DNA from: Aestuariibius sp. HNIBRBA575
GTDB taxonomy: Bacteria; Pseudomonadota; Alphaproteobacteria; Rhodobacterales; Rhodobacteraceae
Assembly (NCBI RefSeq): GCF_040932005.1
Contig: NZ_CP162414.1
Span: 523,501 to 587,500, forward strand
Direction of reading: 5' to 3'
Length of the DNA: 64,000 nucleotides
Part shown: positions 58,806 to 64,000 of the stretch, one piece after another
Layout of the letters: every line of letters begins with the position of its first letter
Numbering within the stretch: the stretch's first letter is position 1
Notes under the pieces: generated by a model
What the model was told of the DNA's origin: nothing
Database searches by the model: none
Seen by the model: the letters and a program-made list of their open reading frames with translations, nothing else
Translations under genes and position numbers: made by a program

Positions 58806-59975
58806 ATGTTTCGTCGTCTTTCGGTTCAAGCGATTTCCATGGGTTTGCTCGCGGCCTTTGTGGGGTATTCGGCATCTTTTGCGATTGTGCTGGCGGGGCT
58901 AACGGCCATGGGGGCCAGCGACGCACAGGCGGCGACGGGTTTGTTTTTTGCATCCATCGGCATGGGGATTTGCAGCATTTGGCTGCCCGCTGTGACGCGC
59001 ATCCCGGCGGCTGTGGCATGGTCCACGCCGGGGGCCGCATTTTTGGCGGCGACGGCCGTTTTACCTGGCGGGTTTGGCGAAGCCGTCGGCGCGTTGATCC
59101 TCTGTGCGGGGCTGATTGTCATAACCGGGTTTGTGCCCGCACTTGGGCGGGTCGTGGCGGCCATTCCAAAGCCAATCGCAAACGGTTTGCTGGCCGGTGT
59201 TTTGTTGAAACTCTGTTTGGCGCCCGCATTGGCGCTGGGGACAATTCCAGTGCTGGTTTTACCGGTTCTGGTCGCGTGGTTGATTGGGTTGGTCTGGAAC
59301 CGATTGGCCGCCATGCCCTTTGCGGTCTGTGCGTTTGTTGTGGTGCTGTTTTTTGTCGTCGACATGTCCGGCAGTGATGCGCAATCTGTCACGCTGCGGC
59401 TTCCGGCCTTTGATCCCGTGCCGCCTAGCTTCACATTATCGTCCTTCTTTTCCATCGCTCTGCCGCTTTATCTGGTGACAATGGCAGGGCAAAACATCCC
59501 CGGATTTGCGGTGCTGGAATTGAACGGCTACCCGGTTGATCGCCAGCCGTTGATCCGCAAAACGGGCATTGTTAGCATCGCCTTTGCACCATTTGGATCG
59601 ATCCCGGTCAACATGTCCGCTATCACCGCAGCCATGATGGCAGGCCAAGATGCAGGGCGCGATCCCGCAAGCCGATATTGGGCCGCAATCACTGCGGGGA
59701 TCGTGTATGTGCTGTTGGCCTTTGCCGCCGCTTTGGTGACGTCGCTGGTTGGTCTTGCGCCATTGGCGCTGATCACCGCCGTTGCCGGGCTCGCGCTCAT
59801 TCCGGCTTTGGTTGGTGCGATCTCAGCGGCATTCGCTGACCCCACCCAGTCAGAGGCCCCAGCGCTGACATTTCTGATCGCCGCCAGCGGCATGACACTT
59901 TGGGGAATTAGCGGCGCGTTTTGGGGTGTCGTTGTCGGCACGCTGATCTGGGTGCTGAAATCAAAGACCACCTAA
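58806..59975 (+). CDS. BenE-family benzoate/H+ symporter-like transporter
   Basis: The gene encodes 389 residues with about 12 hydrophobic segments. The BenE signature region (AVAWSTPGAAFLAATAVLPG and GFAVLELNGYPVDRQPLIRK) is clear. Known members import benzoate. There are no aromatic-catabolism genes here; it follows hutC by 110 bases, so a hut-related substrate is possible but unproven. ATG 58806 gives the conserved start; an upstream open frame of 105 codons overlaps hutC and is not coding. Confidence 0.88.
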   Translation: MFRRLSVQAISMGLLAAFVGYSASFAIVLAGLTAMGASDAQAATGLFFASIGMGICSIWLPAVTRIPAAVAWSTPGAAFLAATAVLPGGFGEAVGALILCAGLIVITGFVPALGRVVAAIPKPIANGLLAGVLLKLCLAPALALGTIPVLVLPVLVAWLIGLVWNRLAAMPFAVCAFVVVLFFVVDMSGSDAQSVTLRLPAFDPVPPSFTLSSFFSIALPLYLVTMAGQNIPGFAVLELNGYPVDRQPLIRKTGIVSIAFAPFGSIPVNMSAITAAMMAGQDAGRDPASRYWAAITAGIVYVLLAFAAALVTSLVGLAPLALITAVAGLALIPALVGAISAAFADPTQSEAPALTFLIAASGMTLWGISGAFWGVVVGTLIWVLKSKTT

Positions 59976-60509
59976 CGCCAGACACCCTGTTGAGCAGCAT
60001 ATATATGCATTGTAGCAAAAGCGCCGCGCTCATGTTGTATGGCCACGCCCGAGAATTGGGTTAAAGGTCAATCTTCGCTGTCCATGGTGGAGGAGAATTG
60101 CAGAAGGACATCGGAAATGTCTTTCTTATCTGGTGCCCCCACGAAAAAGGTCGTCGAGGCGATAGCCCTGATTGAGATCGCGGGTTTGGACTGCGTCGCA
60201 GCTACCTTGATGGCAGGTTACATCCAGAATGGGCCGTTTTTTCCAAGCGATTTGAAAACGAAAGTTCGGCGATTCAACGTTTGAATTCCGTTAGAAATGT
60301 CCAAAGATACCCTCTTATTGAGAATATGGTGGGCGACATGCGATGACTCTATCGTGCTAGAAACTGGTATGCGAAACGTGGTGTTGCAGGATACTTTCCC
60401 AAGCCAACAGCATATTTCTGGGTCTTGCGCTTGTGCCGCGATATGGCAAAAAGTCGTGCTCGGTAGCGCTTACCGCAGAATGGACTTCATGTAACCCGAG
60501 TTAGATCAC
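59976..60509. other. Gene-poor stretch between BenE and the SWIM/VWA cluster
   Basis: About 530 bases hold no well-supported gene. By eye it is less GC-rich than the flanks. Several short open frames are present, the best being at 60117-60284. It may be a boundary of an acquired region or decayed DNA. No repeat or integrase remnant was recognised. Confidence 0.5.
60117..60284 (+). CDS. Possible small protein, unrecognised
   Basis: The frame encodes 55 residues and starts MSFLSGAPTKKVVEAIALIE. AAGGAC lies 8 nt before the ATG, and the frame is open to 60284. The central part is hydrophobic (LDCVAATLMAGYI). No family is recognised; it may be a gene remnant. Confidence 0.3.
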   Translation: MSFLSGAPTKKVVEAIALIEIAGLDCVAATLMAGYIQNGPFFPSDLKTKVRRFNV

Positions 60510-62477
60510 TCATCTTCTCAACGCGGTCAGAACGATTATCTCGTGGCACAGATAGGCAGCAGCAAGAACGTCGACCGGACGCAGGCCCTGACGCACCCGC
60601 TCCAGCGCATCCGCCAGAAGCAGAAGCTGCCGCGCTTCGGCCCCCGCGGCCAGATGGGCCAGGTGATCTGGCTGCATATGCCGACATTGTTCGGCAAGGT
60701 GGCACAGTACCTGAGCGGCAAACCCGTTGTCTTGAGGCGCGATTTCTGTTCCCCGTAGCCGCTTCCATCCGCGCAGAAGTTCACCTTTGGCCCGTGTTAG
60801 GATCCTGCCTTGGGGGGCTGGCTGGAACTTGAGATTAATGGCCGTCAATCCTGTTCCTTCTGGATGTAAAAGGGTCACCGGCTCATGCTGTAGCTCATCT
60901 CCGACCAACGAGGTCACGATCAACAAAGCAGTTGCGCCGGGGAATTGCAGATGCATGTAGGTCAGATGGTCAATCTCTTGCGGGCTGGCCGAAAGTTCAA
61001 AAATGTCGCCCGTCGCATCCAGCACCCGCCAGCGATAGCGCTGACTGATGTCGTCGAAATACGGCTCTTCTATGCGGGTGGGTGCGATCAGTGCGGGCAG
61101 TGGCGCCGCACTCCGTTTCAATCCCTGCCCAATCTCGCAGCGCAGCATCTCGCGCAATTGATCCCAGCGTTGAAAACAACACGCGTGATCCTGCAATTGG
61201 GCACTGGGAATGGCGCCGTTAACATTTGCCGTCACCTTGCCCGCCGTCGAAAGCTGCCCCTCCGGCGACAAAAGCGGTTGATCAAGTGTCACCATGTTCC
61301 CCGTCAAACCCGGCACCGAAGGGATGCCCCAGAACGGGCTAGCATAGGCACGAGCCGGGGTGAAATTGGCATCCATCCCGGCGCCCCGCGCTACGGTTGC
61401 GGCGTGAAACACTCCGGTTTCGTGGTTCAGCAGATAAAGCGTTAGGCCGCGTGCGCCATTGGGGCTGTTCCAGCCTTTTGCGCCCAAAGCCCACAGATCC
61501 ATCGTCGGGGCCTGGGCAAAACTGCGCCGCACCACACCCAGAATCGCGGGATCGTTCGGGGTTTGTGTTAATGCTTTGACCAGCGCATAGGCCTGCGCCA
61601 AAGCCGCCAGAAATCGCCCGTGTTCAAAGCGAATATCACCTGTTTCCGCCCAACCGCATTGGGTGGACAGGGTCAGAAGCTGCCCGGTCAGGCGCGGGGC
61701 GGATTGCACCCTGGCGGAGATCGCCAGGTCGAGGAAACGTTCCTGTGCCAGTTGGGCAGAGCCATGAAAAACCTGCGAAATGGCGGCTTCGATCGCGTTG
61801 GAAATCTCGGCGAGCATGGTCGCATCCGGTCCGGTCGTGTTGACGCTGTTGGCTGGGGGGTCAACCACGTTCCGTGCCACTCCCGCTTGGTCTCGAACAG
61901 CAATGGCCCCAGCGGTCACCACCAACCGTTTCCGAGTAGACGGCCCCTTATAAAGCGCTGATGTCAGGGGTTGCCCTGCCACAAATGTTACAGAGGCATC
62001 GGGCGTCACAAACGAGACCTGCGCATTTTGCCCGAGCGCCTCGATCTGGGCTGATCCGGCCAAAACCTGCGCCCCGTCATAATCGGCACCCGCAAATTTG
62101 CGCAAATCCTCTGCCGCCAACCCTGTCAGTCCGTCACTGGCCGACGGGGCATGGGTCAGTTCCGGCGGGGCGTCGTTTTCAGGTGCATCATTCGCGGAAG
62201 GCGCGCGCGTGTCCGCCGAAGCCTCTCGCAGCACAAGCATTGCGGTCAGAATATGGCTGCATATGCCCGGCGCGGGGCAATCACATCTGGCAGATTGCGG
62301 TCCGGCAGGCGGGATTGAAACGGCCTGCCCGCATACGGTGAGGTCGGCGTCATCCTCGTCAAAGCGCAGAATGTTCGCCTCTCCCGTCGTCTTCATCGCG
62401 CGGCGCAACAAACCTTTGTTGGCCAGCGCCACCAGCGCGTCATCGTCAAAAGAGGCAATCAAATCGCGCAGGCTCAT
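60510..62477 (-). CDS. SWIM zinc-finger protein of a VWA-linked cluster
   Basis: The gene encodes 655 residues. The N-terminal SWIM motif CxCx5CxH is at 65-75 (CDCPAPGICSH), preceded by a short helical domain (SLRDLIASFDDDALVALANK). The remaining 550 residues are not recognised by motif and carry no signal peptide. SWIM fingers bind DNA or protein. The ATG overlaps the VWA gene's stop by 4 bp (ATGA), so it is the third gene of the operon. It probably works with the VWA and DUF5682 proteins (context inference). Confidence 0.85.
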   Translation of the reverse strand: MSLRDLIASFDDDALVALANKGLLRRAMKTTGEANILRFDEDDADLTVCGQAVSIPPAGPQSARCDCPAPGICSHILTAMLVLREASADTRAPSANDAPENDAPPELTHAPSASDGLTGLAAEDLRKFAGADYDGAQVLAGSAQIEALGQNAQVSFVTPDASVTFVAGQPLTSALYKGPSTRKRLVVTAGAIAVRDQAGVARNVVDPPANSVNTTGPDATMLAEISNAIEAAISQVFHGSAQLAQERFLDLAISARVQSAPRLTGQLLTLSTQCGWAETGDIRFEHGRFLAALAQAYALVKALTQTPNDPAILGVVRRSFAQAPTMDLWALGAKGWNSPNGARGLTLYLLNHETGVFHAATVARGAGMDANFTPARAYASPFWGIPSVPGLTGNMVTLDQPLLSPEGQLSTAGKVTANVNGAIPSAQLQDHACCFQRWDQLREMLRCEIGQGLKRSAAPLPALIAPTRIEEPYFDDISQRYRWRVLDATGDIFELSASPQEIDHLTYMHLQFPGATALLIVTSLVGDELQHEPVTLLHPEGTGLTAINLKFQPAPQGRILTRAKGELLRGWKRLRGTEIAPQDNGFAAQVLCHLAEQCRHMQPDHLAHLAAGAEARQLLLLADALERVRQGLRPVDVLAAAYLCHEIIVLTALRR

Positions 62478-63601
62478 CGCATTACCTCGGCCAGCCAAAG
62501 CGCCAGGCGATCCGGTGTCATCGCACCGATTTTCATGCCCAGCCCCGCCAGTCGCTCGGCAATCTGCTTGTCCATATACGAATCCCCCAGATCATCTAGC
62601 GCCGACAGGCCAATCATTCGTACTTTGGCTTCGTTCATCTTCGCCACCGCGCGATAGAGCCTGCTCGGGCTGGCCCCTTCGGCAAAATCCGAGATCAGCA
62701 CAAAGACGGTGCGCTCGGGTGTGTCTACAAAGCCTTCACAATATTCCACCGCGCGGCCAATGTCGGTGCCACCGCCTAATTGTACCGACAAAAGCGTCTC
62801 TAGCGGGTCGGTCAGTCGGTCGGTCACATCAAGGATTGAGGTGTCAAACAGGACCATCGACACGTTCACGCCGGGCAGGCCTGACAGGATCGCCGCCATG
62901 ACGGCCGAGTGGATGATGCTGTCGGTCATCGATCCTGACTGGTCTACGCAGAGCACCACCGACCATGGCAATCGCCGCCGTTCCCGCGCTATGAAGCGCA
63001 GGTCATCGGCGATGATCCGGCCACTTTCGGGGTCGTAATTCTTCAGGTTGCGCCGTAAGGTCCCGCGCCAGTCGAAGTTCGCTGCCGACGCGACATGGGA
63101 CCGTTTGAACGGGTTGCGCCGCCCGGAAAACGCCCGCTGCATATCGGATTTCAGTCGCCGCATAATGTCTTGAATAACGGCATCCGCCACCTGCTGCAGC
63201 TTGTCTTTGATCTCCGGTTTGGCGCGTCCGTGGAAACTGAGCAGAGTTTTCAGCAGGTCCTGATTGGGTTCCAGATTGTCCAGTGTTTTGGGATCATCCA
63301 GAAGGTCAGATAGCCCATAACGATCCAGTGCATGGTCCTGCATTACCTCAAACACCGATTGTGGGAACAGCTTGCGCGCCTCACCCAGCCAGTCCAGCGC
63401 CTTCATCTGGGTTGGGTCGAGCGATCCCGGCCCGGAAGGGCGATGCAGCCCTCGCTGTTCGTATTCGCGTCCGTACAGATAATCCAACGCCCGATCGACA
63501 CGGGCATCTGTTCCGGAAAGTTCGCCCATCTGTCGATCGGCATAGCGCCCAAGTGTAAGGCGCCAGCGGCGTTTGGCTTGGTCAGAATCGCGCGGGCTCA
63601 T
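62474..63601 (-). CDS. VWA-domain protein with complete MIDAS motif
   Basis: The gene encodes 375 residues. The N-terminal half is helical and charged. The von Willebrand A domain (about 212-375) has the metal-ion adhesion site DQSGS at 220-224, Thr in GGGTD near 279 and Asp in ISDFAEG. All three MIDAS elements are intact, so metal binding is likely. It overlaps the SWIM gene and the upstream DUF5682 gene by 4 bp each. VWA proteins of this type usually pair with a MoxR AAA+ ATPase, expected beyond the edge. Confidence 0.88.
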   Translation of the reverse strand: MSPRDSDQAKRRWRLTLGRYADRQMGELSGTDARVDRALDYLYGREYEQRGLHRPSGPGSLDPTQMKALDWLGEARKLFPQSVFEVMQDHALDRYGLSDLLDDPKTLDNLEPNQDLLKTLLSFHGRAKPEIKDKLQQVADAVIQDIMRRLKSDMQRAFSGRRNPFKRSHVASAANFDWRGTLRRNLKNYDPESGRIIADDLRFIARERRRLPWSVVLCVDQSGSMTDSIIHSAVMAAILSGLPGVNVSMVLFDTSILDVTDRLTDPLETLLSVQLGGGTDIGRAVEYCEGFVDTPERTVFVLISDFAEGASPSRLYRAVAKMNEAKVRMIGLSALDDLGDSYMDKQIAERLAGLGMKIGAMTPDRLALWLAEVMR

Positions 63602-64000
63602 GCGATGCCCCCGGTGATCCAATCGGTCAAACCATCCGCATGCAAGGTCTCGCGTAGGGTGACATCCATCTGAGCGCCTTGCGTGGCATCGGTGGCATCA
63701 ACGTCGTGATGATGTGCGGTGAATTCGCCCACCGTTCCCCCATGTCGTCGAGTCAGCGCTACAGCCACCTGATCAGCTTCGCGCGGCGAGAGGGCCGACA
63801 GGGCCAAACGCAGATGTGGCAGAACTTCTAGAAACCCGTCATCCTCCAACCCGGTCAGAAATGCGTCTAATGGATCAAGCATCCCCTCAACCGTCCAGAG
63901 TAGCGAAGGCGCAACCGCCAGAACCCCCCGCAACCCGGCAAGGCGGGTGGGCAGGTCGGGGGCGCTGCCGGTCAGCTGCGCGGTGATTAGGTCGGGCAGG
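63598..64000 (-). CDS. DUF5682-type protein, C-terminal part
   Basis: The frame runs to the right edge, so only the last 133 or so residues are seen. They are helical and rich in Leu and Asp, with a SALSPREADQVAVALTRRHGG block and a GGIA terminus. The call as DUF5682 rests on its place directly upstream of VWA and SWIM genes in known clusters rather than on a motif in the visible part. Its stop overlaps the VWA start (ATGA). Confidence 0.55.
   Translation of the reverse strand, partial: LPDLITAQLTGSAPDLPTRLAGLRGVLAVAPSLLWTVEGMLDPLDAFLTGLEDDGFLEVLPHLRLALSALSPREADQVAVALTRRHGGTVGEFTAHHHDVDATDATQGAQMDVTLRETLHADGLTDWITGGIA

Follow-up and report, generated by a model that had tools for sequence, protein, structure and literature searches.

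The right end of the 64,000-nucleotide stretch of Aestuariibius sp. HNIBRBA575 analysed here (the window, G000:C1:523501-587500) carries the leftward tail of an operon. This operon is a relative of the named, uncharacterised yehILMPQ system of Escherichia coli, with a MoxR ATPase of the YehL subfamily, and is no new kind of system. It occurs in nearly all E. coli and is scattered over many phyla, and no described function was found for it. New here are the likeness of the DUF5682 N-terminal domain to TIKI/TraB/ChaN hydrolases, the predicted tandem OB fold of the SWIM protein, the presence of RNA-repair genes beside five of 94 loci, and the variable island in which the window copy lies. The putative TIKI-like hydrolase, the tandem OB protein and the recurrent rtc neighbours make the function of the operon testable in laboratory E. 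coli.

Extension along the same contig (L002, C1:583000-602000) revealed the complete operon. On a single strand and within 10.3 kb, it encodes a DUF4132/HEAT protein, a MoxR AAA+ ATPase, a DUF5682 protein, a VWA protein and a SWIM protein. The five families and their order are shared with yehI, (yehK), yehL, yehM, yehP and yehQ of E. coli K-12. BLAST identity between the two copies is 47% for YehL, 40% for YehP, 27% for YehM, 27% over 349 aa for YehI, and 29% over 95 aa for YehQ. The SWIM-family profile covers in E. coli YehQ almost the range that it covers in the window SWIM protein, which scores 617 bits against the yehQ-family profile, itself built from these loci with the window protein included. 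The copies differ in that E. coli has an additional gene, yehK, between yehI and yehL, and in their location, the E. coli copies being chromosomal in 5320 of 5322 places, whereas that of the window lies in a variable island. In a YehL tree (107 rows with duplicates removed, 94 of them of yeh type), E. coli and the window fall into different clades, both of yeh type. A passage of PMC3893208 lists YehL as one of seven named MoxR subfamilies. No mention of DUF5682 was found in the literature searched, and a search on the yeh gene names found no study of the operon function; as far as we could see, the family is known by name and its function is not described. The original prediction, which had left the function undefined, is in line with this, but had not recognised the kinship with E. 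coli.

All three leftward open reading frames proposed at the window end were confirmed. The SWIM gene (yehQ-like, 60510..62498, minus strand) encodes 662 aa from a TTG, with an alternative ATG start at 62477. The VWA_CoxE gene (yehP-like, 62474..63622, minus strand) encodes 382 aa from a TTG, with an alternative ATG start at 63601. The open-ended frame (yehM-like, 63598..64000, minus strand) holds the C-terminal 133 codons of an 803-aa DUF5682 protein. The 5′ end of this gene lies outside the window and reaches L002:6510, with a GTG start, and the Pfam DUF5682 match (E 4.4e-103) spans the entire protein, which bears out the identity first suggested from the C-terminus. The MoxR gene expected upstream is also present (L002:6526-7638, 370 aa, AAA_5/MoxR), preceded by the DUF4132/HEAT gene (L002:7611-11324, 1237 aa), whose product ends in a DUF4132 domain and also has HEAT repeats. 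Neither of the outcomes that would have refuted the original prediction was therefore observed. The 4-bp overlaps described between three genes concern two junctions, both with the sequence ATGA on the minus strand: VWA/SWIM at 62474..62477, with the ATG start at 62477, and DUF5682/VWA at 63598..63601, with the ATG start at 63601. DUF5682 and MoxR are instead separated by 15 bp, without overlap. The gene-poor stretch noted beside the unit is short: only ~535 bp separate the SWIM stop from the next long frame (ending at 59975), and the left edge of the island lies inside that gap.

A search of the genome collection with the YehL alignment supplied its best 80 loci, and adding the copies of the window and of E. 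coli brought the set to 82. All five families occur together in 72 of the 82 loci, and several of the other ten lie on short contigs. In the window copy and in E. coli, the genes for DUF4132, MoxR, DUF5682, VWA_CoxE and SWIM follow each other in this order on the same strand; the order deviates in some loci (e.g. L061, L062, L070, L075, L082). The loci come from Pseudomonadota, Actinomycetota, Verrucomicrobiota, Planctomycetota, Myxococcota, Cyanobacteriota, Melainabacteria and Spirochaetota.

As judged by their aligned residues, the AAA+ ATPase and the CoxE-type VWA protein have intact motor and metal sites. The Walker A/B and sensor sites are kept in 82/82 MoxR proteins, and the five MIDAS residues in 76, 76, 76, 75 and 75 of 76 aligned VWA proteins, the exceptions being gaps. 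VWA frames shorter than 360 aa were excluded from this alignment, and short frames also from the SWIM counts. The MIDAS site and SWIM zinc ligands seen in the window proteins are thus conserved across the family, the latter (C72, C74, C80 and H82, CxC..CxH, 62253..62285, minus strand) in 71 of 74 aligned SWIM proteins, the remainder being two gaps and one substitution. The VWA protein matches PF05762 VWA_CoxE with an E of 6.1e-47, the domain covering residues 165-377 (62492..63130, minus strand), and a PDB sequence search with YehL retrieved Midasin (E 3.7e-17).

The N-terminal domain of DUF5682 is predicted to resemble the TIKI/TraB/ChaN hydrolase fold and to be followed by a helical repeat. 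This assignment draws on a VIA second look, on profiles, and on invariant residues. H30, E54, R211 and H240 are invariant in 76/76 and 7/7 rows, the window protein being in both sets, which amounts to 82 distinct DUF5682 proteins. With hhalign, DUF5682 aligned to ChaN with an E of 5.7e-4 and a probability of 29%, the first Glu of GExH being absent from the ChaN alignment, and to TraB with an E of 0.13 versus 0.2 for the control. An hmmscan of 49 DUF5682 proteins matched ChaN in 4/49 (best 0.0093) and TraB in 2/49. In a whole-chain Foldseek search of DUF5682 the helical repeats dominated, and no match reached E ≤0.001. Of the profiles run against PDB sequences, that of DUF5682 returned one chance-level match (E 0.32), that of TraB only Cullin-3, at E 0.036 or worse, and that of ChaN 2g5g and one chance-level match. 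From the predicted TIKI/TraB-like fold and the invariant His, Glu, Arg and His, this N-terminal domain is probably a hydrolase, either a peptidase or an esterase.

In the SWIM protein, the Pfam SWIM match (E 0.039) is below the family cut-off. Some 550 of its residues had been described as having no recognised domain, yet residues ~325-564 (60807..61526, minus strand) are predicted to form two adjacent OB folds, like those of HIN-200, RPA and SSB. The structural matches of this region are chiefly DNA binders, as judged by their titles, and a PDB sequence search with the SWIM profile found no match. With such a modelled tandem OB fold, the SWIM protein probably binds single-stranded or structured nucleic acid.

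We therefore favour, tentatively and at somewhat less than an even chance, a reading in which the system is a nucleic-acid-docked AAA+/VWA remodeller serving the TIKI-like hydrolase DUF5682, in cells facing translation stress or damaged nucleic acid, damage to RNA being the leading candidate. Docking on nucleic acid would be the task of the SWIM/OB protein and the HEAT scaffold. Acting through the VWA protein, by analogy with NorQ-NorD, the AAA+ ring would pull on or remodel a bound protein, and DUF5682 would either cleave this protein or be itself the remodelled and switched client. A more specific proposal is that yehILMPQ-type systems are ATP-driven TIKI proteases, in which nucleic acid that is damaged or out of place, such as RNA ends where rtc genes are linked, would be sensed by the HIN-200/RPA-like OB protein with its SWIM finger. 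Proteins on it would then be unfolded by the MoxR/VWA motor into the TIKI active site of DUF5682. This version is unlikely. If it holds, an operon carried by nearly all E. coli would have a function, and the system would to our knowledge be the first AAA+-fuelled TIKI machine.

MoxR/VWA pairs such as NorQ-NorD, RavA-ViaA and CbbQ-CbbO each serve a named enzyme. They join a MoxR-type AAA+ ATPase to an adjacent CoxE/VWA protein, and the window operon does the same, its motor and MIDAS sites being intact. It is possible, if doubtful, that the system is by analogy a chaperone for cofactor or metal insertion, in which the AAA+/VWA pair would mature a dedicated enzyme, the ChaN-like DUF5682 handle the cofactor and the SWIM/OB protein act as scaffold. 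PMC13036017 describes metal insertion driven by NorQD, ChaN is the best profile match of DUF5682 and is called haem-binding by Pfam, and DUF4132 is tied to molybdopterin or molybdate via MolR in a passage of PMC8533742. However, the pairs as presented in parts of PMC3893208 and PMC13036017 serve a named enzyme, whereas in the window system three further partners recur and no gene for a client is seen. No constant client-enzyme neighbour, and no sixth conserved gene, was found around the loci. Clusters of flanking genes were common to at most 6/82 loci, several of them being shadow open reading frames or close relatives, and the flanking families differ (25 of 94 shown). The tandem OB and SWIM features, moreover, suggest nucleic acid.

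The remodeller reading gains its physiological setting from the neighbours. RNA damage is the leading candidate because some copies adjoin rtcR, rtcB, rtcA or Ro60-like genes. Such RNA-repair genes stand beside 5/94 yeh-type loci (L035, L044, L051, L060, L162). L044, the nearest relative of the window operon, has on one side (L044:2-5662) an RtcB-family gene, a Ro60-like gene (TROVE and vWA_Ro60) and rtcR, and on the other (L044:17033-20086) BCS1, a PrfH-like gene with an RF-1 domain, and a second rtcB. L051 has rtcA, rtcB, a Ro60-like gene (vWA_Ro60) and rtcR. In L060, rtcR is divergent from rtcB-rtcA-yehI, with yehI and yehM each split over two frames. In L162, rtcB lies 1.6 kb upstream on the same strand, and L035 has a 96-aa RtcR-like fragment at the contig end, without the RtcR-specific domain. 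A sixth locus, L058, with a lone rtcA 3.3 kb away, was left uncounted.

The rtc link exceeds chance, yet it is optional. At the RtcR density of the class sample, and for genomes taken to be 4.2 Mb, the 666 kb of flanking DNA should hold 0.005 RtcR genes; the 80 loci had three. Assuming one RtcR per genome, the expectation is 0.16 (P ~6e-4). On the YehL tree, the five rtc-linked loci need five separate changes, gain and loss not being distinguished, all forced by well-supported branches; this is close to what labels scattered over the tree require (mean of 4.9 when shuffled). That the link is optional follows from the RtcR genes themselves: 12/387 class genomes have RtcR, the yeh operon is at 0/12 of these RtcR loci, and no RtcR was found in the window genome. 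The window copy itself has no rtc or Ro60 neighbours; the nearest to such genes in its island are those for an RNA ligase and an HD/AAA_33 protein.

A usual role of RtcR as regulator of yeh operons is not supported, with the operon absent from all 12 RtcR loci and sigma-54 sites scarce. In a scan of 11 stretches only L060 and L051 stood out, and not, among others, E. coli, L044, L035, L045, L046 or the window copy. The site before rtcB in L060 scores 12/13 (0/200 mononucleotide shuffles), and that before the Ro60-rtc genes in L051 11/13 (2/200 shuffles). In L044, in L051 and in the window no site precedes yehI, and in L044 the Ro60-like gene also lacks one; the best site upstream of the window operon scores 8/13, a value reached in 200/200 shuffles. 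A literature search joining rtc with MoxR or VWA found no report of a link, and an earlier report elsewhere is possible. Burroughs and Aravind reportedly treated RNA-repair systems in 2016. A comparable arrangement is that of the CoCoNuT and Rtc/RtcR loci covered by parts of PMC11090510, where RtcR homologues lie beside multi-gene operons, as in some yeh loci. However, CoCoNuTs are McrBC GTPase systems as described there, and rtc genes accompany only a minority of yeh-type loci.

As a setting, DNA breaks are a close rival to RNA damage, because one DUF4132 protein carries WGR, a WGR DNA ligase neighbours one operon, and DUF4132/WGR induction is linked to DdrO. The WGR-DUF4132 protein is that of an Agrobacterium plasmid copy. 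The ligase gene (L085:16771-18144), directly behind a Verrucomicrobia yeh-type operon, has an ATP-dependent DNA ligase domain and WGR, with SWIM-like cysteines recognised by eye. According to a passage of PMC8533742, depletion of DdrO, the DNA-damage repressor of Deinococcus, raises a DUF4132 gene and a WGR gene, although this passage covers DUF4132 and WGR genes and not the five-gene set. The OB matches, chiefly DNA binders by title, point the same way. A dedicated DNA-break response machine, with HEAT/DUF4132 proteins (some with WGR) and SWIM/OB proteins acting at DNA ends and not on RNA, is nevertheless improbable, as rtc genes are found beside five loci versus a WGR ligase beside one, in a survey where DNA-repair genes were not searched systematically.

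The window copy is accessory and lies in a variable island or hotspot. The same-species genome G001 has no DUF5682 match, and in it the 22.3 kb of G000:C1:583818-606078, starting at window position 60318 (left edge 60317..60318), are replaced by 21.5 kb of other DNA (G001:C3:290327-311845), with both flanks 99% identical. The two islands share a single stretch, within a TnsB-like integrase (65% over 605 bp) that has 547 aa in the window genome and 726 aa in G001. A tRNA-Gln gene lies ~115 bp past the right edge. Besides the operon and the integrase, the island carries an RNA ligase (PF09414), an HD/AAA_33 protein, a resolvase, and a UG9-type DRT reverse transcriptase (706.9 bits); NACHT, TnsA-like, TnsB and TniQ genes are present at this site in G001.

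With the UG9-type DRT in the same island, and NACHT and Tn7-like genes at the same spot in the sister genome, the operon could be a conflict system, anti-phage or of another kind, in which an AAA+/VWA switch releases DUF5682 as the effector; we regard this as quite unlikely. DUF5682 is indeed patchy, being found in 14/295 sampled family genomes and 16/397 phylum genomes (the own genome and the second subtype counted in), and type I restriction-modification genes adjoin one plasmid copy. MoxR-VWA conflict systems are known as well: the vWA-MoxR ternary systems in the relevant part of PMC7159879 have a MoxR and VWA core and are multi-component, like the window system. However, none of VMAP, iSTAND, FtsH or a beta-propeller third component appeared in a Pfam scan of the five proteins at E 0.1, and the bpMoxR match, at 23.1 bits, is below the 27-bit cut-off. 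The five proteins had a single PADLOC match, at E 0.032. The five families are constant in 72/82 loci, and how far this tests effector swapping is limited by the longer VWA frames and L109, L115 and L121, which were not scanned for extra domains. Finally, yehLMPQ (at least 80% of it) is present in 5162/5426 complete E. coli genomes (95%) and is therefore near-universal in this species. Of the conflict- or chaperone-like character suggested in the original prediction, the chaperone-like, multi-component part fits, whereas the conflict part is weakly supported.

Flanking genes paint a similar picture. After removal of 13 near-duplicates from 80 fetched loci, 60 of the remaining 67 yielded proteins, and the nearest gene on each side gave 104 proteins, those above 900 aa excluded. 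This set has no matched control, and calling by longest frame admits antisense shadow frames and missed the rtcR of L044. Among the 104 genes, 94 Pfam families were matched at E 1e-6, and the 25 shown are chiefly metabolism, transport and tRNA, plus one RTC. Five PADLOC models were matched by one gene each, without a control set for comparison. So few models, together with near-universality in E. coli, do not support a defence-island reading as a general rule. In viral contigs, short patterns of the window DUF5682, which reach close relatives only, had no match; one match came from a phage collection, on an unannotated and unverified faecal contig.

A second subtype, seen in L026 and in L043 (Methylosinus plasmid pOB3b3), shares MoxR, DUF5682, VWA and SWIM with the window system. 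It has DUF5691 in place of DUF4132 and the SWIM gene first, in the order SWIM-DUF5691-MoxR-DUF5682-VWA, as shown for these two loci only; the VWA frame of L043 is fragmented. Its YehL proteins group with 11 others and are set off by a branch with full support, where the tool warns of long branches. In L109, L115 and L121 the DUF5682 and VWA profiles both seem to hit one frame, the same frame length being listed for each, which may indicate a fusion.

Several further observations concern the island and the mobility of the operon. Behind the UG9-type DRT gene (L002:17200-18897) lies an RT-associated PolA-like gene (G000:C1:601893-603449), which an in-frame stop splits. The RNA ligase gene (PF09414) overlaps that of the HD and AAA_33 protein (L002:14207-16196); the two are perhaps a separate RNA-repair pair within the island, and were not found in the other loci searched. 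In L040 (NZ_CP103756.1:102645-132747), a conjugative E. coli plasmid, the chromosomal block from yehI to mlrA lies between IS26 copies, with beta-lactamase genes adjoining.

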